Positions 4,576 through 26,635 of a stretch of 64,000 nt of DNA are shown here, one piece after another. The position numbers and the translations under genes were made by a program. The stretch's first letter is position 1, and every line of letters begins with the position of its first letter. The notes beneath the pieces were generated by a model. It was not told the origin of the DNA and did not search any database. It worked only from the letters and a program-made list of their open reading frames with translations. This stretch comes from Candidatus Jettenia sp. (lineage in GTDB: Bacteria > Planctomycetota > Brocadiia > Brocadiales > Brocadiaceae): NCBI GenBank assembly GCA_021650895.1, contig CP091278.1, positions 3,129,659 through 3,193,658 of the forward strand. Direction: 5' to 3'.

Positions 4576-6264
4576 CTAAAAACCAATTTGACCTATACGG
4601 GAACCCCATGTGGTAGTAGTGTTTATCTTCTCATTAACAATCCACGCCTTTAACGGATTGATTGGATCTACCGTCACTGCTGAATAATCGCCCCACCGCT
4701 CAGGGTCGGTGCCTGTAGGTTTGTAGAATGTAGTGCTCTGGAACAGTACGCTACCGGACGGTATAACTCCGGCAGGGTCAGTTGAGCGCCGGCCTGAGAA
4801 TCGAACCTGGGCATGGGTAGTAGCAGTTTGTTTTGTAGATGACCATACTACGTATACATCTTTCGTCGTATTTGCTGTAATCGTGGCATTCCAGTCGTTC
4901 GAATTTGCAGATGCGGAAAAGAAACCACTCTGGACGATGGTATTCGTTGAAGTATTGAACTCATAAAATTTAGGCTTTGGAAGGCCGCCCGAGTTTATGG
5001 TGTGCACCTGCCAGAGCGAGTTGCCACTTTGGGTACTTGCATTAATGAAACGGCTATCCGATGTGTCGAGCAGGGCTGTAGTATTCGGTTGTTGTGCATT
5101 GGGCGGTAAACTATATGAGGGTACGGTTATCGTAGATGAAGTTAGTGTAGGATTTGCGCGACTGGAATTTTCCAGCGTATATTTTGTTATGGTTGTACCA
5201 CTTGTTACTGCTGCAACCAGGAACGATTTATTATTTTGATCCAATACAATAGGGGGCGCAAGTGTGCCCTTAAGACCGGAAAATATCGGAACACTGAAGC
5301 CCAGTCCATTGTAAAGTAAAGCCTTTGCTACGGCAAACATTCTGGTAGTCCTGTAGGCTGTGGGTCCGAAGATGTTTGCCGTGATGATAATCGAGTCCTG
5401 ATCCATACCGAGCTGGGGAAAGTCCCAAAAGTCATCATTATTACGGGTGTTAATATCAATTTTGTAAATGTAGAATGAACCGAGTGGATTATCGGTTAAG
5501 GAGACTGCAATGAGTTGCCTCTGAACGGTAGTAGTCTCCGGAAATGCATCCGCTGTTATTATCCACCGGTTCCATGTCTTATCATACACACATCGTGGGT
5601 CAAATATGGTTTTTAAGGTATAACCGAAAAAACTTGCAAGCGAAATGGTCTTCACACGCGAGCCGGTTTTTGTATAGATATCGAGGTGTGAATTGGTTAT
5701 CTCAACAAAGTGTGTCTTTCCAACTGCCCCATGGGTGTCTGGTGGCCGAAAGCCTCCTGCCTCATTCTGGTTAACACCTTCAATATTTATTCCTTTTAAA
5801 ACTGGCGGAGCAAGCGGTTGTGGGGGAGTGACCTCAGAACGATCAGTATCTGTACTTTTGGCAGAAATAGCAGATTTGGCAGCTTTGTATTCAGTGTCAT
5901 TCATGGTGGGGCGAAAGGGTATTTCAACTCCTTCTGGTGCTTTACTTGGCGTGAGTAAAGTTGTTTCGTCTGTCTCCATTTGCTTTGGTGTTCGTATACG
6001 TGCCTGTCTTGATTTAAGGATGCCTGCCGGGCGTATTTTTTTTACATCTTTTATAGCATTTTCCGGGATTGTGTCATCATTATTTGTTGTTGCGGTTTCT
6101 TCAGAGTTTTCCGGGAGTAATTCATCATCATTTGTCGCTCCCGTGCCTTCAGGATTTTCCGGGATTAATTCCTCAGCAGCGTGTGATGTTGATATCGTAT
6201 AAGCAAATACCATAAAGGCTATAATAACTTGTGCCAGAAAGAGCATTTTAAGTGCTTTGTGCAT
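4576..6264 (-). CDS. Secreted hypothetical protein, probable beta-propeller
   Basis: A 562-residue protein. The first 29 residues form a signal peptide (hydrophobic FLAQVIIAFMVFAYTIS, then TSHAAE). A low-complexity acidic linker follows with repeated 'PENPEGTGATNDDELLPEN' units. The remaining 400 or so residues are rich in Ser, Thr, Asn and aromatic residues. They contain the block 'GGFRPPDTHGAVGKTHFVEI' and repeated 'V-D-dS--i-ta' strands, as seen in large secreted bacterial proteins with a propeller-like body. No catalytic motif was recognised. The ATG follows GGAGAACG. It is likely exported and may be surface or periplasmic. Confidence 0.7.
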   Translation of the reverse strand: MHKALKMLFLAQVIIAFMVFAYTISTSHAAEELIPENPEGTGATNDDELLPENSEETATTNNDDTIPENAIKDVKKIRPAGILKSRQARIRTPKQMETDETTLLTPSKAPEGVEIPFRPTMNDTEYKAAKSAISAKSTDTDRSEVTPPQPLAPPVLKGINIEGVNQNEAGGFRPPDTHGAVGKTHFVEITNSHLDIYTKTGSRVKTISLASFFGYTLKTIFDPRCVYDKTWNRWIITADAFPETTTVQRQLIAVSLTDNPLGSFYIYKIDINTRNNDDFWDFPQLGMDQDSIIITANIFGPTAYRTTRMFAVAKALLYNGLGFSVPIFSGLKGTLAPPIVLDQNNKSFLVAAVTSGTTITKYTLENSSRANPTLTSSTITVPSYSLPPNAQQPNTTALLDTSDSRFINASTQSGNSLWQVHTINSGGLPKPKFYEFNTSTNTIVQSGFFSASANSNDWNATITANTTKDVYVVWSSTKQTATTHAQVRFSGRRSTDPAGVIPSGSVLFQSTTFYKPTGTDPERWGDYSAVTVDPINPLKAWIVNEKINTTTTWGSRIGQIGF

Positions 6265-6741
6265 AAATCGTTCTCCATGTCTAAATCAATATTTATGTAT
6301 AGGAATTTCAAACAAGCTATGTAGTGGCAAGGCGCGCCTGCCACTACTGCTATAAAAGTTACGTAGGGTAACCCTTTAGGGTTGCTTTCTCCCGCATGCA
6401 CATTCTCATGCGGGGAAGCAAGGCTAAAGCCTTGCCCTACAGTTTAATAAAAAACAAAAGTAGCCGAAGGCCTAATTTAATGTTTAGGAAATTCAAAGTT
6501 TTTCATTATGCTGTTGACACACCCCTAACTACAATTGTACAGACGCAAGATTTTGCGTCTCTCCAGGGGAATGAACCCACCCCTAGCCCCTCCCAAGAGG
6601 GGAATAAAAAGTCCCCTCTCGGGAGGGGATTTAGGGGTGGGTAAAAAAGAAAAGTCGTTGGGTTTTGCCTTTTAAAACCCAACCTAATTAAAGGGGAATT
6701 TCCCTGAATTTTATAATCGGGAAGTGCTTCATCAGGGTTCA
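6265..6741. repeat. Repeat-filled intergenic region
   Basis: A paired-hairpin repeat lies at 6361-6441. A GACGCAAGATTTTGCGTC palindrome lies at 6541-6558. At 6563-6650 there is a self-complementary block (CCCTCCCAAGAGGGG ... CCCCTCTCGGGAGGGG) whose start GGGGAATGAACCCACCC is the intact version of the site into which a MITE has inserted at 38231-38761. No gene is seen. Confidence 0.65.
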
Positions 6742-17505: not shown

Positions 17506-18603
17506 ATGCCAAAAGAGAATCACGCCACACCAGAACTAACACCAATAGAAGTAAAGCTTTTAGAAGCCGCCAGGAGTGGTCAATCAGTCTTGTTGTATGG
17601 TAAAGACAGTATAGGGCGTAAAGAACTAATTCTCAAAATCCATAAACAAGCCATATGTTTAGATGAAACAAAAAGACTTACCTATACCAAAGAGCTTTTA
17701 GAGAAAGTAGATCAAGGCTTGATTGAAAATACTATAAGCCGTAAATCGAAAGCTTACTATGTTAATTGCGGAACTATGAACGGTAATGAAATATACGAAA
17801 CAATCAAAAATATTTATACTGGAATCCTACCTTCCAATGTTGAAATATCAGACGCTTTTACAACTAATCCTTTGCCAGAATTAAGCCTTGAGAATCTTAG
17901 AAAATTATATTTTCTGGACAATACATATTGTGATTCTCAAACTAATCAAGACTTTTTGAATTCGGCGGGCATAGCAAAGAGTACAGACGGGAAATGGCTT
18001 GTTATTTACACTTATGATATTGATAAACTTCCGCAATACTTCAGAGAGCAATTCCAGGAGATAAGCCTTGAGAGCACACCAGAGATGCAGGGCAACGGGC
18101 AAAGGCTGCCACACATGGTTAATACTTTCCCTATGCCTCCTGGAGCTAATATAAATGATATTAAAATGTGCCTCCTGGATGATGAAAATATCCGCATTGA
18201 TGTTAAAGAAGAATCTAAGACTTTCCATTATGCACAAATGGGACTTTCTGCTAAAACCAACAATCGTCCATTGGCTGCATGGGATGCTTTGCAAGATTAT
18301 GCCGAATATAATGGGAACCTGCATAAGGTTGATAATGCAAGACAAAAACGTAGTGAAAGATTAAACAAATTGCTAAAGAGTTTTTTTCAAACCGATAAAG
18401 ATTTAATTGTGAGCAATCAAACCCTTTTTAAGATCAGTAAAAGGAAAGCTAGTAGCAAGAAACCCGTCCATATTCAGCTTACGGAATGTCCAGTATGCAA
18501 AAAAAACCATAGGCATTATTGCTATGTGTGTGAGGATACAACAAACCATTGTCAAGAATGCCATGATGGCATTTATACCGAAGCCCATAATAAACTAAAC
18601 TGA
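17506..18603 (+). CDS. Degenerate AAA+ (sigma-54 activator-like) protein with a zinc-binding C-terminus
   Basis: A 365-residue protein; the ATG has AGGGGGTAGC upstream. The N-terminal half follows the outline of sigma-54 enhancer-binding ATPase cores but with eroded motifs. 'SVLLYGKDSIGRKELILKIH' sits where GESGTGKE belongs. 'YYVNCGTMNGNEIYETI' resembles the FVAVNCAAL-type segment. 'LENLRKLYFLDNTYCD' stands in for the Walker B strand, and 'WLVIYTYDIDKLPQYFREQFQEISL' resembles the AATN-to-FREDLYYRL region. The ESELFGHEKGAFTGA loop needed for sigma-54 contact is absent. A wHTH-like 'AWDALQDYAEYNGNL' stretch and a Cys/His cluster CPVCKKNHRHYCYVCED plus HCQECH (from about residue 327) follow. The homology is inferred by eye. 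It is probably an element-specific regulator without normal ATPase activity. Confidence 0.5.
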   Translation: MPKENHATPELTPIEVKLLEAARSGQSVLLYGKDSIGRKELILKIHKQAICLDETKRLTYTKELLEKVDQGLIENTISRKSKAYYVNCGTMNGNEIYETIKNIYTGILPSNVEISDAFTTNPLPELSLENLRKLYFLDNTYCDSQTNQDFLNSAGIAKSTDGKWLVIYTYDIDKLPQYFREQFQEISLESTPEMQGNGQRLPHMVNTFPMPPGANINDIKMCLLDDENIRIDVKEESKTFHYAQMGLSAKTNNRPLAAWDALQDYAEYNGNLHKVDNARQKRSERLNKLLKSFFQTDKDLIVSNQTLFKISKRKASSKKPVHIQLTECPVCKKNHRHYCYVCEDTTNHCQECHDGIYTEAHNKLN

Positions 18604-18630
18604 TAGCCAGTCCCCCTTTTCTCTCGAAAG

Positions 18631-18668
18631 CCTTGTTATCGACAAAACGGTAGCAAGGTTTTTTTTAT
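18631..18668 (+). terminator. Rho-independent terminator
   Basis: CCTTGTTATCG and CGGTAGCAAGG pair (two G-U pairs) around an ACAAAA loop and are followed by eight Ts. It lies 27 bases after the stop of the AAA+-like gene. Confidence 0.8.
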
Positions 18669-18752
18669 TCCCAGATTTTATAAAATATTCTCATTCCATT
18701 TAACCCCAGTATTTAAGCCATTTCACAGCACATTTCGCCAAAATTTGTATCG

Positions 18753-18784
18753 TCGACAAATCGACAAACCTCCGACAGTCGACA
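18753..18784 (+). promoter_or_regulatory. Four CGACA repeats upstream of the MerR-type gene
   Basis: CGACA occurs at 18754, 18762, 18773 and 18780, three times preceded by T, within 32 bases and about 50 bases before the start at 18835. It could be an operator for one of the element's HTH proteins; this is suggested by clustering alone. Confidence 0.35.
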
Positions 18785-18834
18785 CATCAGGGTGAGAATT
18801 TTATATTTCTGATTCTGATATAAGAGGGGTGAAT

Positions 18835-19047
18835 ATGACTGAAGAAGGTTTAGGGCGGGAAAAATTGTATACACTGGGGCAAGTGGTAGAAATTTTAAAT
18901 GTGCCGAAGTATCGAATTGTTTACCTGTTTGATTCGAGGAAATTGAGGGGGGAAGACTTTTTAAAATCGCCAGGCGGTGAGCGGGTTTATCGGGAGTCAG
19001 ACATTGAAAAGATCAGGCGGGCTTTATTCGAGGTGGGCAATAAATGA
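18835..19047 (+). CDS. MerR-type helix-turn-helix protein (70 aa)
   Basis: The start is at the ATG behind AGAGGGGTGAAT; a GTG two codons upstream is also possible. The product is a single winged-helix domain of MerR type: 'LYTLGQVVEILNVPKYRIVYLFDSRKL' with the tyrosine/phenylalanine wing, then 'GGERVYRESDIEKIRRAL'. There is no effector or dimerisation domain, as in small phage and plasmid regulators. It overlaps the next gene by four bases (ATGA), so 18835-21649 forms a translationally coupled unit of three genes ending with the primase-helicase. It likely regulates replication genes or helps excision. Confidence 0.75.
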   Translation: MTEEGLGREKLYTLGQVVEILNVPKYRIVYLFDSRKLRGEDFLKSPGGERVYRESDIEKIRRALFEVGNK

Positions 19048-19349
19048 AAGATACCAAAACAATTATTTGCCAGAAGTGCGGCTATTACCAGGAAGAGCCG
19101 TTGGTCAAGCGGATCGCATTGCCTAACGGTGGCTATCACATGTCGGCATATTGTTCAGGATGCGGGCGGTATATCCAGCACATTAAACATGCCGAGCCAG
19201 TGTTACCTTTTGGCAAGTACAAGGGTAAGCGCATTGCCGATATTGCAAAGAGTGATCCGGGCTATCTTCGATATTTGCTTAGCGTGGATATCAGAGAAGG
19301 CTTGAGAAAGAATATCCAGGATGCGTTATCGGCGGAGGTGCAAGAATGA
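19044..19349 (+). CDS. Zinc-ribbon protein with a DUF3820-like domain
   Basis: A 101-residue protein. The N-terminus has a zinc ribbon (CQKCGYY ... YCSGCGRY). The C-terminal half, 'VLPFGKYKGKRIADIAKSDPGYLRYLL', matches the short DUF3820/exodeoxyribonuclease X C-terminal-type module ('pFGKYKGk-i-dIa--DP-YL-Wl') found in many phage proteins, where it is thought to bind nucleic acid. It overlaps both neighbours by four bases. It probably assists the primase-helicase encoded just downstream. Confidence 0.7.
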   Translation: MKDTKTIICQKCGYYQEEPLVKRIALPNGGYHMSAYCSGCGRYIQHIKHAEPVLPFGKYKGKRIADIAKSDPGYLRYLLSVDIREGLRKNIQDALSAEVQE

Positions 19350-21649
19350 GCGAGGCGGCTACTTTGTCAGATGTTTCGATCCGTTTATATCAAAATTCAT
19401 TCGATAGGACAGGTGCTACCAGCAATCTTGATGCGGTCATGGACGGAATCAAAAGCGGAAAATGGAGAAAGCAAGTTGAGCAGGTGCGGAACGAAGCGGA
19501 CACCAAAAAGCGAAATGCTTTGAAACAAAGACTTCCTGCATTCACTCCAAGCGGTGTCTTCTCCGAGCGGAAATCAAGCGGGCTGCAAAGCCATAGCGGG
19601 CGGCTGGCGATTGATTTTGACCTTCAAGACAATCCCGAATTAGAGACGAGCCTTGAAGCGGTGCGGGAGAATTTACAGAAAGATAAATATTCCGAGTGTG
19701 TTTCTTCATCTGTTTCCGGGCAGGGGCTTTTCGTGATCGTCAAGATTGATGGCGACCAGCATGCGGAAAGCTTTGAGTTTCTCCAGGCATATTACCAGGA
19801 GAACTACGAGCTTTGTATTGATAAGTCATGCAAGGATGTCTCACGGCTTCGTTTTGTTTCATATGACCCTAAGCTGCACTATAACGAAAATGCTGAGACG
19901 GTCATTGTTCCTGATGCAGAAGATTTTGGCGAATCAACACAAGAGGATTTGAAAGCATACCCAAGCGGCCAGAGTAATAATAAAAGCATTATGGAGGCCA
20001 TTATCAAGAGCGGCAAAATGATCGGCGACGATGGCCATCCAGATTGGACAAAGGTGGGCTTTGTACTAGCTCATGAATTCGGTGAGGCAGGTAGGAGTTA
20101 TTTCCATGCACTGAGTCAAAGAAGTTCTAAATACGATGAGGCGGAATGTGATCGGAAGTATGACAATTGCCTTCGGACGAATCGAGGCGATGTTACCTTT
20201 GCAACTATCATTCACATGGCGAAGGTGGCGGGGATTGAGCTTCCTAAAACTAGACGGCTGGTAAATTCCGAATTGACAGAGAACGTCTTAAGCAATGAAC
20301 GATTACAGGTAAAAGCTTTTAATCTCACGGATTTAGGCAATGCAAGACGTCTCGTATCTTTGTATGGCGATAAGATTCGTTACTGCTTTGCATGGAAGAA
20401 ATGGCTAATTTGGGACGGGAAGTCCTGGTCTGTCGATGATGACGGCCAGATCATATGGCTGGGCAAGGAAACTGTTAAACGCATATATCAAGAGGCTGCG
20501 GGCGAATCCGACTTCAACGCCAGATCGAACATTGCGAGATGGGCTTTGAGGTCTGAGGAAGAGAAAAAGATTAAGGCTATGATCTCCCTTGCACAAAGTG
20601 AGGAAGGCATCCCTATTTCACCAGATGAGTTAGACGGTGATCCGCATTTATTGAACTGCCTGAATGGGACATTAGATTTACGGACAGGTGATTTGATGCC
20701 GCATAATCCGAAGGACTTCATTACCAAGATGATTCCCGTTGAATATCACCCAAAGGCAGAATGTCCGACATGGCTTGAATTTCTTGAGACTGTCTTCAAT
20801 TTCAATTACGACATTATCCGCTTTCTCCAAAGGGCTGTGGGGTATTCGTTGACGGGTAGCACTTCTGAACAATGCCTTTTTCTCCTACATGGAAGTGGCG
20901 CAAACGGAAAGTCTACTTTCGTAAAAACTGTAATAAATTTACTGGGTGATTTTGCACAGATTGCCGATTTCGAGACGTTCTTAATTCGGGGGAATGACGG
21001 CGGTATTAGAAACGATTTGGCACGGATGAAGGGGAAGCGATTTATTTCGGCGGTAGAGATGGAAAGCGGAAAGCGCCTTGCCGAGACAGTAATCAAACAG
21101 TTAACAGGCGGCGATATTATTTCTGCACGTTTTTTATTTGCTGAGTATTTCGATTTTTCACCCACCTTCAAGATATGGCTGGCGGCTAATCACAAGCCTA
21201 ACATTCGAGGCACAGACCATGCCATTTGGCGGCGGATAAAGCTAATCCCGTTTAACGTCACGATTCCTGATGAGAAACAGGATAAGGGGCTTGATGAGAA
21301 ATTAAAGGCGGAACTTCCTGGCATTCTTGCATGGGCGGTACAGGGGTGTCTTGAATGGAAACAGACTGGCCTGCAAACTCCTGAAGAGGTAAAAAATGCA
21401 ACGAGTGAGTATCGCAATGAGATGGACACTATCCAAGCGTTTTTTGATGAGTGTTGCATCATAAACACAGAAGTAAAAGCAAAGGCAGGTGTTTTATACG
21501 AAAGCTACAAAAAATGGTGCACGGATAATAATGAGTTTACTTTGAACAATCGGCAATTCGGAAGAAGACTGAACGAAAAGGGCTTTCAGAGTTTTCAATC
21601 AAGCGGCAATTGGTGGCGTGGCATCGGGGTAAAAAGTGAAAATTCATGA
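19346..21649 (+). CDS. Phage/plasmid primase-helicase (D5/P4 family)
   Basis: A 767-residue replication protein. The N-terminal region (about 15-190), with 'SGRLAIDFDLQDNP' and 'SSSVSGQGLFVIVKIDGDQHAESFEF', resembles the BT4734/VirE-N-type primase-like domain. A PriCT_2-like segment follows (about 210-285, 'WTKVGFVLAHEF...Y..FH.LS'). The D5_N region comes next ('LLNCLNGTLDLRTGDL'). The superfamily 3 helicase has Walker A HGSGANGKST (about 514-523) and a later 'KIWLAANHKPNIRGTDHAIWRRI' sensor. Such proteins prime and unwind DNA at the origin of P4-like satellites and related plasmids. An iteron-like array lies directly downstream. The protein implies autonomous replication of the excised element. 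Confidence 0.88.
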   Translation: MSEAATLSDVSIRLYQNSFDRTGATSNLDAVMDGIKSGKWRKQVEQVRNEADTKKRNALKQRLPAFTPSGVFSERKSSGLQSHSGRLAIDFDLQDNPELETSLEAVRENLQKDKYSECVSSSVSGQGLFVIVKIDGDQHAESFEFLQAYYQENYELCIDKSCKDVSRLRFVSYDPKLHYNENAETVIVPDAEDFGESTQEDLKAYPSGQSNNKSIMEAIIKSGKMIGDDGHPDWTKVGFVLAHEFGEAGRSYFHALSQRSSKYDEAECDRKYDNCLRTNRGDVTFATIIHMAKVAGIELPKTRRLVNSELTENVLSNERLQVKAFNLTDLGNARRLVSLYGDKIRYCFAWKKWLIWDGKSWSVDDDGQIIWLGKETVKRIYQEAAGESDFNARSNIARWALRSEEEKKIKAMISLAQSEEGIPISPDELDGDPHLLNCLNGTLDLRTGDLMPHNPKDFITKMIPVEYHPKAECPTWLEFLETVFNFNYDIIRFLQRAVGYSLTGSTSEQCLFLLHGSGANGKSTFVKTVINLLGDFAQIADFETFLIRGNDGGIRNDLARMKGKRFISAVEMESGKRLAETVIKQLTGGDIISARFLFAEYFDFSPTFKIWLAANHKPNIRGTDHAIWRRIKLIPFNVTIPDEKQDKGLDEKLKAELPGILAWAVQGCLEWKQTGLQTPEEVKNATSEYRNEMDTIQAFFDECCIINTEVKAKAGVLYESYKKWCTDNNEFTLNNRQFGRRLNEKGFQSFQSSGNWWRGIGVKSENS

Positions 21650-21650
21650 T

Positions 21651-21960
21651 AGTACGTTTCTCGACAAACGTACTATAACGTACTATCAAACGTACTACAA
21701 ACGTACTAGCATTCTTTCTCAATATTGGTGAGGCTTGCAGCAAGACACCTTGAATATTTTTAGTATATTAGCGTGTTACGAAACGTACTATCATTCTTTT
21801 TCAACATTGGTGCGGCTTGCATGGTGTGTGAGAGGGGAAAAACGCCAAAAAAGTACGTTAGTACGTTGATTTGGGGTACTTTCCCTTGTCTGTGCCTCGT
21901 GAGGGACTTTACCGAAATCAACGTACTAACGTACTAACGTACTAACGTACTAACGTACTA
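21651..21960. repeat. Iteron-like array of ACGTACT motifs, candidate origin
   Basis: About 13 copies of (A)ACGTACTA in both orientations lie in this gene-free stretch. Five form a perfect 8-base tandem array AACGTACT at 21920-21959. The others are at about 21651-21712, 21779-21791 and 21853-21870. Two copies of CATTCTTT-TCAA-ATTGGTG-GGCTTGCA (about 21711-21739 and 21791-21820) are interleaved. Position just after the primase-helicase supports an origin or a replication/control site. It is not a CRISPR: there are no spacers. Confidence 0.65.
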
Positions 21961-22049
21961 AAATTCTTTTGTTTTGTTTTTATCTCTTTTGCTGTGTATT
22001 GAAATGCAGAAAAAACGGGAGAACTAATCTTTTTAGGAGAACAAGAAAA

Positions 22050-22202
22050 ATGGATAGCGAAAAAGTGTTAGGTGAAATCATTAAGAATGAAACAGAGAAA
22101 CTCATCATTGCGGAAAAAGAGTATAAAGGACGTAAATACATCGACATGCGGATTTACTTTCTAGGTGATGATGGCAAATTCATAAAAAGGATAACGACAT
22201 AA
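22050..22202 (+). CDS. PC4/YdbC-like small ssDNA-binding protein (50 aa)
   Basis: The start is at the ATG with TTAGGAGAACAAG upstream; longer in-frame starts run into the iteron region. The product, MDSEKVLGEIIKNETEKLII then AEKEYKGRKYIDMRIYF and LGDDGKFIKRITT, matches the compact PC4 fold ('i-kn--ekl-v---eykGk-yidiRiyy---dGef--T'). It is shorter than most homologues and lacks the C-terminal helix. PC4-like proteins bind single-stranded DNA and assist transcription or replication. It sits between the iteron array and the ERCC4-type nuclease, consistent with a DNA-processing module. Confidence 0.65.
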   Translation: MDSEKVLGEIIKNETEKLIIAEKEYKGRKYIDMRIYFLGDDGKFIKRITT

Positions 22203-22205
22203 GCT

Positions 22206-22673
22206 ATGAAGAAATCTGACATGACCATATTGCAGGACACACGAGAACAGAAGCCTTTGACATTCCCACAGGCTAAGGTGTTGGTCAAGATGCTTAAGAC
22301 GGGTGACTATTCGCTTGAGGGCTTCGAGGACAAGATTACGATTGAGCGCAAATCGCTTCCAGACCTTCTAGGATCGCTTGGGAATGATCGGGATAGATTC
22401 ATTGCGGGGAAGATACAGAGAATGCAGGCGTTCGAGTATGCAGGGGTTGTTATCGAGGCTTCCATGCAGACTATAGCGAATGGCAATTGGCGGTCTGAGA
22501 TACACCCAGCATCGGTAATGGGATCGCTGCAAGCGTTGTCGAGCAAATACGGCATTCACATCTTCTTTGCAGACAATCGAGAACTGGCAGCAAAAACAGT
22601 TGAAGGGCTTTTATTTCAATTTCTCAGGAAACAACACGAATTGCATGAGAGATTACCACTTTTGAACTTATAA
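22206..22673 (+). CDS. ERCC4-type nuclease
   Basis: A 155-residue protein starting three bases after the PC4-like gene stops. It has the XPF/ERCC4 nuclease core with 'ILQDTREQKPL', 'TGDYSLEGFEDKITIERKSLPDLLGSL' (the G-DY and ERK-S catalytic motif) and 'RMQAFEYAGVVIEAS'. It lacks the helicase and HhH2 parts of full XPF. Such stand-alone nucleases are frequent in phages and mobile elements and are thought to cleave branched or flapped DNA during replication or recombination. It likely works with the primase-helicase and PC4-like protein. Confidence 0.88.
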   Translation: MKKSDMTILQDTREQKPLTFPQAKVLVKMLKTGDYSLEGFEDKITIERKSLPDLLGSLGNDRDRFIAGKIQRMQAFEYAGVVIEASMQTIANGNWRSEIHPASVMGSLQALSSKYGIHIFFADNRELAAKTVEGLLFQFLRKQHELHERLPLLNL

Positions 22674-22693
22674 CTTTCAGGAGGATAAACGGA

Positions 22694-22885
22694 ATGGAAT
22701 TAAAAACAATTGAGATTACCAACGGATTGATGGACATGAATCAAACTGCGGCTTATCTAAACATAAAGCTTGCAACACTTTACAGTATGACAATGCGGAA
22801 GGAAATTCCTGTTGTAAAGATTGGGCGGCTTAATAGATTTCGTAAGCTTGACCTAGATATCTGGATTGATAAAAACATGAAGTAA
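22694..22885 (+). CDS. AlpA/excisionase-type helix-turn-helix protein (63 aa)
   Basis: The ATG has TCAGGAGGATAAACGG upstream. The single HTH_17-type domain reads 'DMNQTAAYLNIKLATLYSMTMRKEIPVVKIGRLNRFRKLDLDIWIDK', the standard layout of excisionase and AlpA proteins (helix-turn-helix, wing with G-l-RF, then 'dLd-Wi'). In P4-type elements such proteins regulate integrase or act as recombination directionality factors. Here it is the best candidate for the excision factor of the tyrosine recombinase at 24651. It follows the nuclease by 20 bases. Confidence 0.82.
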   Translation: MELKTIEITNGLMDMNQTAAYLNIKLATLYSMTMRKEIPVVKIGRLNRFRKLDLDIWIDKNMK

Positions 22886-22935
22886 AGAGGGGGTAGTTTT
22901 AAGCGACACCCTTTAAAGGAACATCGATTCAAACT

Positions 22936-24039
22936 ATGTTGCTTGAGAATAGGAGATATAACAAGGATGTCATTTCAAATGACACCCTTAACACCATGAC
23001 TGTAAATCTTAAATCGCCAGTAAATCGCATAGGTGGTAAATACTTCCTCAAGGATTGGCTAGTCCAGCATATACCACAGCATACCCTCTATTGTGAGGTG
23101 TTTGGGGGTGCTGGACATGTCCTATTCAACAAGTCACCTAGCCGTGTCGAGGTCTTGAATGATGTTGATGGTCACTTGATTAACTTCTTCTGTGTGCTCC
23201 AGCATCCAGAGAAACGGGGGAAGTTAGTTGAGGTGCTCCAGCACATGCCATACTCACGGCAGTTGTGGCAGGAGATGCGGAACAAGATTCGAGGTGGAGA
23301 CGTGGCAACAGTTATCACGCCAGTTAAAAAGGGAAGGGGGAAAGGCCAGAAGTATCAAAAGATAGTGTCCAGGCTAAAAGAAAGCCCTGAACTATCCGAC
23401 AGGCAGATTGCAAGAGAACTAGGTGTGAGTAATAAAACAGTGAGCGTAATAAGAAAAACAAATTACACAGCAAATTACACAGTTGATTCACAAACTACAC
23501 AGTTGACCGATGTTGAAAGAGCGGCACAATGGTATTACTTGAACAGGTGTTCCTTCTCAGGTGATCAGTTAAAGGGCGGCTTTGCTGTGCCTTCTACCAG
23601 TGGCAGGAATCCCGCATTGAGTTATGCCAACAGCATCGGCATCTTCCATGATGTAGCCAGGAGATTGCAGGGCGTGACTATTGAATGCCTTGACTATCGG
23701 GAATGTATCCAGAGGTATGACAGTCCAGGCACATTATTCTTCATTGATCCACCATATTTGCATGCAGAAGGATACTATGGAGAAAAAAACTTTTCATTAG
23801 ATGACCACCAAGCCCTTGCAAAGATGCTCAGCATGGTAAAGGGTGTTGTAATGGTCACACACTACCAGAATGGCTTGTATGACGAGCTATACGAAGGCTG
23901 GCATAAATATGAGTTTCAATCCTTCAAGGGAAGCAGCAAGGCGGATGCAGGAGAAGAGAAACCAAAGACCGTTGAGACCTTGTATTGTAACTTTTCACCA
24001 GAGGTTAAGTTTAGGAGTCTATTTAATGGATTATCATGA
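22936..24039 (+). CDS. Dam-type DNA adenine N6-methyltransferase with inserted HTH
   Basis: A 367-residue D12-class methylase. 'SPVNRIGGKYFLKDWLVQHIP' and 'YCEVFGGAGHVLFNKSP' form the AdoMet-binding start (FGGAG about 56-60). 'LNDVDGHLINFF' follows, and the catalytic DPPY is at about 271-274 ('GTLFFIDPPYLHAEGYYG'). Residues about 130-185 are an insertion not normal for Dam: a basic linker KKGRGKGQKYQK, then a complete HTH 'LSDRQIARELGVSNKTVSVIRK'. The insertion sits in the target-recognition region. The start at 22936 is uncertain; an ATG at 22996 directly before the conserved core is possible. There is no partner endonuclease, so it is an orphan methylase likely used for self-protection or regulation. 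Confidence 0.85.
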   Translation: MLLENRRYNKDVISNDTLNTMTVNLKSPVNRIGGKYFLKDWLVQHIPQHTLYCEVFGGAGHVLFNKSPSRVEVLNDVDGHLINFFCVLQHPEKRGKLVEVLQHMPYSRQLWQEMRNKIRGGDVATVITPVKKGRGKGQKYQKIVSRLKESPELSDRQIARELGVSNKTVSVIRKTNYTANYTVDSQTTQLTDVERAAQWYYLNRCSFSGDQLKGGFAVPSTSGRNPALSYANSIGIFHDVARRLQGVTIECLDYRECIQRYDSPGTLFFIDPPYLHAEGYYGEKNFSLDDHQALAKMLSMVKGVVMVTHYQNGLYDELYEGWHKYEFQSFKGSSKADAGEEKPKTVETLYCNFSPEVKFRSLFNGLS

Positions 24040-24109
24040 TTTCGTTATATGGTATGTTTCTTTCGAGCTTATGCGGTTAGCATGCTTCGGGCTGTATTGG
24101 TCTATGTAG
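24026..24109 (+). CDS. Possible small membrane peptide (27 aa)
   Basis: ATG at 24026 with TAGGAG eight bases upstream, overlapping the methylase 3' end. The peptide MDYHDFVIWYVSFELMRLAC plus FGLYWSM is hydrophobic. It is supported only by the ribosome site and composition and may not be real. Confidence 0.3.
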   Translation: MDYHDFVIWYVSFELMRLACFGLYWSM

Positions 24110-24114
24110 GCATA

Positions 24115-24216
24115 TTAATGAGTATGCTTTTTCTTTCGTTCCTGGTAATAGACAATACCAAAGCCTATCCAGATACTAGCGAGGACAAGAATTAAAAATA
24201 TGCTTAAAGAATCCAT
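24115..24216 (-). CDS. Small single-pass membrane protein (33 aa)
   Basis: ATG at 24216 with GAAAGGAGTAAAGGAAT upstream. One transmembrane helix, 'LSIFLILVLASIWIGFGIVY', is followed by a basic tail YYQERKKKHTH, which suggests the N-terminus faces out and the tail stays in the cytoplasm. It lies six bases downstream of the 84-residue membrane protein gene on the same strand, so the two probably form a pair. The function is unknown. Confidence 0.55.
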   Translation of the reverse strand: MDSLSIFLILVLASIWIGFGIVYYQERKKKHTH

Positions 24217-24222
24217 ATTCCT

Positions 24223-24477
24223 TTACTCCTTTCTGCTAATCCAATATCCAACAACAAAAAATGATATAGATATGCTTAACCCTAAAACAATATGAGACAA
24301 ATTAAAACCTTTAGGCGATATGATACCACCTACGATAAAACCCGTATAAGTGAGTTTAACCATATCATAGAGAAACTTGGTAATGTCTTCTTTTTGTTTC
24401 TTCGTCATATCAGTAGACATATTATACACCAGATACAAACAGATAGCAAAAGGTAAAAAGATATAAGAATATATCAA
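24223..24477 (-). CDS. Small two- or three-helix membrane protein (84 aa)
   Basis: Hydrophobic segments are 'MIYSYIFLPFAICLYLVYNM', 'MVKLTYTGFIVGGIISP' and 'HIVLGLSISISFFVVGYWI'. A central amphipathic stretch 'TKKQKEDITKFLYDMVKL' resembles small phage/plasmid-borne membrane proteins of unknown function. It is transcribed opposite to the rest of the element and shares a divergent gap with the integrase gene. It may act in host interaction such as exclusion, but nothing in the sequence proves it. Confidence 0.6.
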   Translation of the reverse strand: MIYSYIFLPFAICLYLVYNMSTDMTKKQKEDITKFLYDMVKLTYTGFIVGGIISPKGFNLSHIVLGLSISISFFVVGYWISRKE

Positions 24478-24586
24478 GAATATCCTTGAATTATTACGAG
24501 AAGTACGATAGTACGTACCACCAATAAATCGGTGCGTGGACAGACGCTAATTAAGATATGCTTGGGGTAATACTCAGGCGATAAAG

Positions 24587-24631
24587 AGGCAATGACTGGC
24601 ATGCTGTCCCATGCTGGTTGTTGCCTTTTGT
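24587..24631 (+). terminator. Hairpin with a T-run in the leader of the integrase gene
   Basis: AGGCAA ... GGCATG-loop-CATGC ... TTGCCT followed by TTTTGTGTTT. It ends 20 bases before the GTG start. The tail GCCTTTTGTGTTT is the same as after the hairpin at 17011, so the element uses the same terminator-before-start arrangement twice. Confidence 0.6.
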
Positions 24632-24650
24632 GTTTAGAAAGGGGGTAATT

Positions 24651-25859
24651 GTGGCGGTAAGGTATCGTAAGTATTTCCAGCAATGCAAGGGGAAGAGAAA
24701 CAAAGGCGACCAATACGGTAAGCTGATTGCAAAGGGTGTTAACTGCGAAGGGAAACGAAGTAAGAATTGTCCAGAAGGTATACCAAAAGATAAGCCTTGT
24801 GGTGGATGGGCAATCGAATTTAGAGACCAGCATGGCAAATGGCAAAGCATTATCAAGCCAGGATTCACCAAGACGACAGCTAAAGAAGCATACCTTGAGA
24901 TAACAAGAAATATCCAAAGAGGTCTCTTTGACCTGCCTATCCTGCAAAAGATGCCTAAAATTATCGTTGAAGCATATGCCAGGAAATACCTTGAACATAT
25001 CAAGGGTAGCATACCAGAGAATACCTTTGTAAATAGACAAACGGCGGTGAATGCTATCATAAGACGTCTAGGGGGCTTTGAGCTTTCCAGGCTTAATGTA
25101 GTTCTAATACAAAGATTTTGTACAGATGTATTGCAGATAGATAAGGCGAAAGCGTCAACGGTGAATCAGTATTGTTCTATTCTTAAGCTTATCCTTGATA
25201 TGGCCATACAAGAAAGAGTTATTAACACGAATCCTATGCAGGGATTTAGACGGCTAAAGGTGGATGAAACTTCCAAGAGGATATTGACGAATGAGGAAAT
25301 AAGGACAATTCTTGACGAATCTATACTACCTATGGATAGTGATCGCATGGCTATTCTTATTGGTATGTTTACGGGTCTTCGCCTGATGGATGTTATAGGG
25401 CTTGAATGGTCAAACATAGATTTTAGTAACGCTAAGATTACTTTAATACCACAGAAAACAGGCAGATGCATTACACTGCCGTTATCTGGCTATCTGCTAG
25501 GTGAATTAAAAAGGTATAAAGAATTAATGCCTGACAGAGGATGCCACTTATTCTGTGATGGAGAACTTGACATTATTGCAGGGAGAAACTTTAGCAGGTA
25601 TTTTGTAAACCTATTCAAGAGATTAGGCATGAACGGTATTTCATTCCATAACTTACGCCACACGAATGCCAGCAAGTTTACTGAAGTTGTCCAGGACGTT
25701 ACTATTGCATCAAAGCTATTAGGCCATAGCCACACAGATATTACTATGGGCTATATCCATAAAGACTTTAACTCACAGAAAGAAGCTATTGAGAAGTTCA
25801 CAAATCACATGCTTTCTTTGCAAGAGTACGAACGTGGTACGAATCAGAAAATAGCATAG
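24651..25859 (+). CDS. int: Tyrosine recombinase / integrase
   Basis: The start is GTG at 24651 with GAAAGGGGGTAATT upstream; longer frames would run through a terminator hairpin. The product is 402 residues. The N-terminus is a basic arm-binding region ('RYRKYFQQCKGKRNKGDQYG'). A core-binding SAM-like domain follows ('PKIIVEAYARKYLEHIKGS ... AVNAIIRRLGGFELSRL'). The catalytic domain holds R in FTGLRLMDVIGLEW (about 244), HNLRHTNAS (about 332), LLGHSHTDITMGY with the H and the nucleophilic tyrosine. It integrates the element by recombination between 16-base cores; the right core is 43 bases downstream. Control probably involves the leader hairpin and the AlpA-like protein. Confidence 0.93.
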   Translation: MAVRYRKYFQQCKGKRNKGDQYGKLIAKGVNCEGKRSKNCPEGIPKDKPCGGWAIEFRDQHGKWQSIIKPGFTKTTAKEAYLEITRNIQRGLFDLPILQKMPKIIVEAYARKYLEHIKGSIPENTFVNRQTAVNAIIRRLGGFELSRLNVVLIQRFCTDVLQIDKAKASTVNQYCSILKLILDMAIQERVINTNPMQGFRRLKVDETSKRILTNEEIRTILDESILPMDSDRMAILIGMFTGLRLMDVIGLEWSNIDFSNAKITLIPQKTGRCITLPLSGYLLGELKRYKELMPDRGCHLFCDGELDIIAGRNFSRYFVNLFKRLGMNGISFHNLRHTNASKFTEVVQDVTIASKLLGHSHTDITMGYIHKDFNSQKEAIEKFTNHMLSLQEYERGTNQKIA

Positions 25860-25901
25860 TATCGTAAGTATTTTATAATCAAAGTGTTATGAAAAATTGG
25901 A

Positions 25902-25917
25902 TTATTTTACGGTAAAT
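25902..25917. repeat. Right attachment core (attR) in the 3' end of the cupredoxin gene
   Basis: TTATTTTACGGTAAAT is identical to 15985-16000. On the minus strand it reads ATTTACCGTAAAATAA, covering the codons Thr-Val-Lys-stop and most of the preceding Phe of the host gene, so recombination preserves the reading frame. Confidence 0.85.
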
Positions 25918-26537
25918 TCCACCTTAGCAGGGGGGCCTGATATAACCTTGATTTGTTGATCTTCCGATTTGCCCCGTTCACTCCATAATTTTACCGTATA
26001 CTCTCCTGGCGGTACATCGGTAATGGAAAAACTCCCATCGTTACTCACCCTTGTAAAATATGGATTTTGTAAAACCAGGATGTAGGCAAGCATGTCGACA
26101 TGCACGTTGCAACGGATAGAGGCAATACCTGATTTATGAAAGGTAAAAGATCTTATTTCACCCTTAAGCCACGTCCCCAAATTCATATTGTCCGCTACAA
26201 TATCCGGAGAATAGACATTATGCTGAACGCTATCGCTGTTAAGAAAATCAACGGTAGTTCCCTTTACTATAGGAAGTACATGGGGAATGAAGGCCATATT
26301 TTTTTGATCCATAACAGCATGTTCTGTTGGTGGCTCAAAAGTGTTTGGCATATTTTCAATATAAACAATGGCATCCTTTAAGTATTTAGGCTTTTTTGCA
26401 GTGATAGTGCCAGTGATTACTGCTGAACTGCTTTCACCGGCGGATATATGGCGCAGGTGAATTCCTGTTACAAAAAATACGGTAAAAACTAAAATAATTG
26501 GGACCTTTATATAAATCCACATATTTTTAGTGTACAT
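25902..26537 (-). CDS. Cupredoxin-domain protein with a carboxypeptidase-regulatory-like C-terminus
   Basis: The start is at the ATG behind TAAGGAGATTATCT, giving 211 residues. A signal anchor (IYIKVPIILVFTVFFVTGIHL) is followed by a plastocyanin-like domain: 'AVITGTITAKKPKYLKDAIVYIEN', 'PIVKGTTVDFLNSDSVQHNVYS' and 'GIASIRCNVHVDMLAYILVL'. These provide the His ... Cys-x-x-His type copper ligands of the 'methylamine utilization protein' group. A short beta-sandwich 'VSNDGSFSITDVPPGEYTVKLW' ends the protein. It is exported and probably carries electrons or binds copper in the periplasm or anammoxosome-like lumen. Its 3' end is the integration site of the neighbouring element. Confidence 0.85.
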   Translation of the reverse strand: MYTKNMWIYIKVPIILVFTVFFVTGIHLRHISAGESSSAVITGTITAKKPKYLKDAIVYIENMPNTFEPPTEHAVMDQKNMAFIPHVLPIVKGTTVDFLNSDSVQHNVYSPDIVADNMNLGTWLKGEIRSFTFHKSGIASIRCNVHVDMLAYILVLQNPYFTRVSNDGSFSITDVPPGEYTVKLWSERGKSEDQQIKVISGPPAKVEFTVK

Positions 26538-26635
26538 AGATAATCTCCTTATAACATGCTTCAAAAGGTATCTATAAAAGGCAAAAAATATAGAGTTGGG
26601 AGCAAATGAGTCACAAAAGAGATAAATACATTTAC

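Follow-up and report, generated by a model that had tools for sequence, protein, structure and literature searches.

Directly behind the primase-helicase gene of a 9.9-kb integrative element in an anammox-type planctomycete lies an array of 13 short repeats (iterons) in both orientations around a palindromic core, and in related elements iterons of a similar type accompany the same kind of helicase. Copying of this element very probably starts at the array. The fuller reading, in which the array is the element's origin and its own primase-helicase binds the iterons, opens the DNA and primes the excised circle, is given a probability of about 0.85. Judged by sequence, the plan appears to be the same as that of known origins of phages, plasmids and phage satellites; it is of an already known kind. 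The origin of replication suggested in an earlier note on this DNA is well supported, both by the arrays of relatives at the same place and by the arrangement of published origins.

The iteron array

The window (the whole 64-kb stretch of DNA analysed) holds 15 occurrences of ACGTACT, 13 of them inside 21651-21959 (in shuffles 2.75 on average and at most 7). Each of the 13 is a complete AACGTACT 8-mer, with 10 forward and 3 reverse, and no other AACGTACT exists in the window. The earlier description of about 13 motifs in both orientations within 310 bases thus agrees with the count, and the five 8-base tandem copies at 21920-21959 are indeed perfect. The 29-base unit reported in two copies is also real; it sits within a 41-bp direct repeat whose copies are 90% identical and which itself includes an iteron. 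By eye, the 29-bp units might pass for degenerate duplicates of the 3' end of the primase gene, but this was rejected, the local alignments being no better than those of shuffles (p 0.65 and 0.88). Tandem AACGTACTAACGTACT is unique to the array in the whole 3.8-Mb genome. In the 450 bp past the primase stop codon, the best two-orientation 7-mer scored 13.5 against a shuffle mean of 2.6, and none of 200 shuffles equalled it. The array is far beyond chance.

The array begins one base past the stop codon of the primase-helicase gene (gene end 21649, first iteron 21651) and is lopsided, with 3 reverse against 10 forward copies. The core between the iteron sets is 50% G+C; A+T-rich sequence is found instead between the two clusters and beyond the tandem copies (Table 1). 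A 24-bp inverted repeat (21852-21875 with 21912-21935, 96% complementary, 36-bp centre) is made up of the pair of reverse copies at 21852-21867 and the first of the forward tandem copies, and this region, folded as single-stranded DNA, has a z-score of -7.3. So strong an inverted repeat and fold might also be expected of a transcription terminator or an RNA structure after the primase gene, but the unpaired centre is long, the hairpin has no directly following T run, and the repeated 8-mers reach far past one hairpin; such a role is highly improbable.

Table 1. Positions of the array, the initiator gene and other features of the element in the window
Feature	Position	Strand	Remark
attL, 16-bp direct repeat TTATTTTACGGTAAAT	15985..16000	.	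second copy at 25902
MerR/HTH_17-like protein, 72 aa	18829..19047	+	Pfam HTH_17/MerR_1
Primase-helicase replication initiator, 767 aa, intact	19346..21649	+	Pfam and PHROGs
AACGTACT copies, forward	21667, 21677, 21689, 21700, 21782, 21920, 21928, 21936, 21944, 21952	+	
AACGTACT copies, reverse	21651, 21852, 21860	-	
Iteron cluster 1	21651..21707	.	one reverse and four forward AACGTACT
41-bp repeat, copy 1	21699..21739	+	iteron and CATTCTTT...GGCTTGCA
A+T-rich stretch between clusters, candidate unwinding site	21750..21789	.	27.5% G+C; putative function
41-bp repeat, copy 2	21781..21821	+	one iteron at 21782
Palindromic core, left arm	21852..21867	-	two tandem iterons, reverse orientation
Core GATTTGGGGTACTTTCCC...GAGGGACTTTACCGAAATC	21868..21919	.	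common to helicase relatives; 50% G+C
Right arm	21920..21959	+	five perfect tandem AACGTACT
T-rich tract adjoining tandem iterons, candidate unwinding site	21960..21999	.	22.5% G+C; putative function
ERCC4-type nuclease	22206..22673	+	Pfam ERCC4 4e-11, phrog_3490; relatives in five related elements
HTH_17 excisionase-like protein, 63 aa	22694..22885	+	Pfam and PHROGs
D12-class adenine-N6 DNA methyltransferase	22936..24039	+	Pfam and PHROGs
Tyrosine integrase	24618..25859	+	Pfam Phage_integrase 2e-21
attR	25902..25917	.	at 3' end (stop codon) of host gene 25902-26564(-)

The surrounding element

The element is complete and spans 9.9 kb (15985-25917) between 16-bp att repeats. A genome of the same genus, G002, provides the empty site (L110), where the chromosomal flanks are adjacent and a single att copy is present. 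The att repeats and the empty site together place the array inside a 9.9-kb element integrated at the 3' end of a host gene. The element carries an integrase, HTH genes and the primase-helicase. None of the ten proteins scanned against Pfam and PHROGs was recognisable as a packaging protein, and the element is not filed as a phage-inducible chromosomal island (PICI). The D12 methyltransferase is present in most related elements. At the left end, 16287-16736 encodes a 149-aa protein with an N-terminal CENP-B_N-type HTH and a relative in L031, which is small terminase- or regulator-like by eye only. Left of attL, 15188-15806 contains dispersed repeats of about 110 bp, which L036 has reordered and reoriented.

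Short direct repeats are often bound by excisionases. This habit counts in favour of the array being mainly an operator or architectural site for an HTH protein of the element, either the MerR-like or the Xis-like one, with a role in the control of transcription or excision. Both proteins are DNA-binding by family, and Xis-like relatives are present in most related elements. Against such a role, attL and attR are 5.7 and 3.9 kb away from the array, and comparable arrays follow the initiator gene in phages and plasmids whose accessory genes differ. A relative of the MerR-like protein was found only in L032, L006, L029 and, weakly, L039; the gene went undetected in L028, L030, L035 and L036, all of which have arrays, and the protein was rejected as the common binder. 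Of the two binders proposed earlier, the primase-helicase is therefore favoured and the MerR-type protein disfavoured, and an array serving chiefly an HTH protein is quite improbable.

Arrays in relatives sharing the helicase

Seven loci of the same order (L006, L028, L029, L030, L033, L034 and L035) encode helicase halves 55-69% identical to that of the window, and in all seven the stop codon is directly followed by GTACC-core iterons, which face both ways around a core. Their plan consists of up to three (A/C/G)GTACC-type iterons, the core, and then up to three inverted copies. The core can be aligned with that of the window in all but L033; in L006, CCTGGTACTTTCC...GTAGGGACTT clearly matches GGGGTACTTTCCC...GAGGGACTT of the window, and GGTACTTTCC and AGGGACTT occur in both. 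The window iterons read AGTACGTT and number 13, against about six of AGTACC type in the helicase relatives, and the window core has 50% G+C against 28-39%.

By the exact 7-mer statistic, four of the seven arrays are individually significant and L033 is borderline (p 0.06); L030 and L034 are not significant because their iterons differ between copies, and their arrays were read from the sequence. Folded as single strands, five of the seven regions are far better than shuffles (z -4.1 to -5.8). A DNA hairpin was nevertheless rejected as a general property, for it is strong in most relatives but absent in L030 and in the folded stretch of L045. The constant feature is the inverted iterons, not the hairpin as such.

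Comparison of the same gap in relatives, the check proposed earlier, shows that place and plan are kept while bases and copy number vary around a GTAC core. Absence of the array in otherwise conserved relatives would have spoken against the proposal; arrays are present in all those with an intact 3' region. Behind the truncated helicase of L031, in the same genome, no array follows. This third, damaged element (L031 5641-7790) has a frameshifted primase half, and its shortened helicase is fused in frame to a methyltransferase-like tail.

The two-part layout leaves room for a locus of copy-number control or incompatibility, comparable to P4 crr or to control iterons, apart from the true start site: cluster 1 and the 41-bp repeats (21651-21821) are extra relative to the 3+3 arrays of relatives. 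The palindromic part at 21852-21959, however, matches the relatives' sole array, and no second array of equal strength was found in the window. A separate control locus is improbable.

Generality among D5 helicases

The association was also examined more widely by applying the two-orientation 7-mer statistic, against dinucleotide shuffles, to the 450 bp past the helicase gene. When the full primase served as a single query against viral contigs, nothing matched; a search with the helicase alignment found 50. Inverted 7-mer arrays follow the D5 helicase in 27 of 44 viral contigs, compared with 3 of 44 gene-internal controls, the contigs including close relatives of one another and so not being 44 independent cases. 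The array is significant in phages A2, rho14, A9Y and phiEG37K and a Listeria phage, as well as in the archaeal virus L4768 and a Singulisphaera plasmid; the positives comprise many phages, plasmids and planctomycete loci, while a sizeable minority of D5 helicases have no array by this statistic. In the phage A2 record, a rep_origin is annotated from the end of the primase. In L038, a CTATGGC array (5909-6320) lies within the 3' end of the primase frame; there, origin and coding tail may overlap.

The initiator and its mosaic structure

The primase-helicase comprises a BT4734-like archaeo-eukaryotic-type (AEP) primase, PriCT-2, a D5/SF3 helicase and a Pox_D5 C-terminus (Pfam: D5_N 2e-41, BT4734-like_N 4e-16, PriCT_2 1e-15, DUF5906 1e-8, Pox_D5 3e-8), and its open frame carries Walker A GANGKS and an IDFD motif. 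Annotated records call this type 'phage/plasmid primase, P4 family'. It has the D5_N, SF3 ATPase and Pox_D5 C-terminus fused to a primase that mark D5/P4-family phage-plasmid proteins; the TOPRIM, DnaG-type primase half of P4 alpha is replaced by the BT4734-like AEP. No PDB match to the N-terminal half was found by sequence, and an AlphaFold model of the helicase half, made from two sequences, was unusable (pLDDT 33).

The stretch 18060-20261 is 98.3% identical over 2.2 kb to a stretch of L032 (9256-11461), the second element of this genome. This identity ends inside the primase-helicase gene, with the break near codon 305, and BLASTP shows no similarity between the helicase half and the L032 helicase. 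The window protein reads as a mosaic whose primase half was apparently acquired by recent exchange with an L032-type element.

Which part of the protein may read the iterons

The primase halves of the relatives with GTACC iterons are diverse: Prim-Pol in L006 and L035, a PriCT-1 type in L033, and a DnaG-type zinc ribbon in L029 and L030, with TOPRIM in addition in L030; in L028 a primase domain could not be recognised. C-terminal similarity among these relatives is 0.44-0.65, and most N-terminal halves are at background. L006 and L030 both have AGTACCC, with a C-terminal similarity of 0.59 and unrelated primase halves (0.06), and pairs of this type join primases of AEP and DnaG/TOPRIM types. 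AGTACCC recurs in the Singulisphaera plasmid, which is more distant (46%). Iteron similarity follows C-terminal similarity (rho 0.21, Mantel p 0.0005), and over the same pairs it correlates at 0.18 with the C-terminus and 0.13 with the N-terminal half. All three are weak correlations; some pairs are related by descent in both halves, and six of the motifs were supplied manually. The pairs with swapped primases are the stronger argument. Since the iteron core persists while unrelated primase modules are exchanged, the reader is probably the C-terminal winged helix of the helicase, as in SaPI Rep and SCCmec Cch2, which recognise iterons directly downstream through a C-terminal domain (PMC7581432).

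The iterons might instead be single-stranded sites for the primase half, in an array that would still be the origin. The NrS-1 primase-polymerase (NrSPol) offers the model: it recognises the 8-nt TTTGGTTA, which has been proposed to tie replication of the genome to one particular site, and its helix-bundle domain binds the primase recognition site (PMC8718748). L032 has a primase half 98% identical to the one in the window, and the L032 iterons, AGTACGC, share six of seven bases with AGTACGT of the window. Yet the GTACC core is kept with primases of Prim-Pol, DnaG zinc-ribbon/TOPRIM or PriCT-1 type, and BT4734-like primases with other helicases have other repeats (CTATGGC in L038). Recognition by the primase half is, on this evidence, unlikely. 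That iteron sequence tracks the primase half in general was rejected, as similar iterons are found with unrelated primase halves and unrelated repeats with BT4734-like primases joined to other helicases.

The primase half may also matter, because L032 and L036 share it, and not the helicase half, with the window and have similar iterons. Both possess strictly symmetric 12-copy AGTACGC origins, six per orientation (4+2, core, 2+4), with a core rich in A+T and G runs, and their helicase is of another type, without BLASTP similarity to the one in the window; L036 belongs to a genome of the same genus and has a related integrase. The window AGTACGT agrees with AGTACGC in six of seven bases, against five of seven with AGTACCC, and its copy number is similar to theirs. 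One rather speculative and doubtful reading is that the initiator is chimeric and its origin is being retuned, the iterons retaining the helicase-type core while their variable bases (AGTACG in place of AGTACC) and 13 copies match the donor's 12-copy AGTACGC origin. The likeness, a single case, may be coincidence or adaptation.

Comparison with known systems

In PICIs, whose origins have been functionally tested, an AT-rich region with a set of iterons on either side comes immediately after pri-rep (PMC6092414). The window shares with PICI and SaPI systems the helicase-bearing initiator, the position immediately 3' of the rep/pri-rep gene, two groups of short iterons (10 forward, 3 reverse) and the setting in an integrated island with a tyrosine integrase (PMC6092414, PMC7581432). 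It differs in that its core is not A+T-rich and its 13 copies form two sub-clusters, in its anammox-type planctomycete host and BT4734-like AEP primase, and in lacking a recognised packaging gene.

Phages with P4-family primases (Lactobacillus phage A2, phi105-like) have a homologous D5 helicase (40-46% identity) and an inverted repeat array directly downstream of the gene, but their iterons differ (ACGGGAG, AGTAACA), and the element in the window is a small integrative one. Cch2 of SCCmec is likewise a D5_N-type helicase, whose C-terminal domain binds iterons downstream of the operon; it differs in having three AAGTG iterons and no fused primase (PMC7581432). The pRN1 protein ORF904 combines an AEP primase, an SF3 helicase and a winged helix, and pRN1 needs a stem-loop downstream of this PrimPol-SF3 gene (PMC4234260). 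Specific binding of the protein to the region could not be demonstrated there, which calls for caution, and pRN1 is reportedly without iterons, unlike the window with its iterons and stem-loop (PMC4234260). The NrS-1 enzyme also joins an AEP, a helical domain and a helicase and uses a specific 8-nt motif, but it recognises TTTGGTTA on the template strand and also uses 5'-GTG-3' (PMC8718748).

Proposed mechanism and significance

The primase-helicase, encoded immediately upstream, would bind the 8-bp iterons as double-stranded DNA, probably via its C-terminal winged-helix (Pox_D5) domain. The oppositely oriented iteron groups would load SF3 helicase rings face to face across the core, and the DNA might open at the core or in a flanking A+T-rich stretch. 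The AEP domain would prime the exposed strands, so that the excised circle could replicate. Binding, unwinding, priming and replication itself are expected here from what homologues do.

An initiator gene and about 310 bp would thus make up a well-delimited replicon from a mobile element of anammox-type planctomycetes, and origins of this plan follow D5 helicases widely. If the origin is indeed being retuned, the iterons would be read jointly by the winged helix and the primase/PriCT-2 part, and once modules had been swapped, all iteron copies would change in concert. With the natural chimeras, it can be tested directly which domain determines origin specificity.
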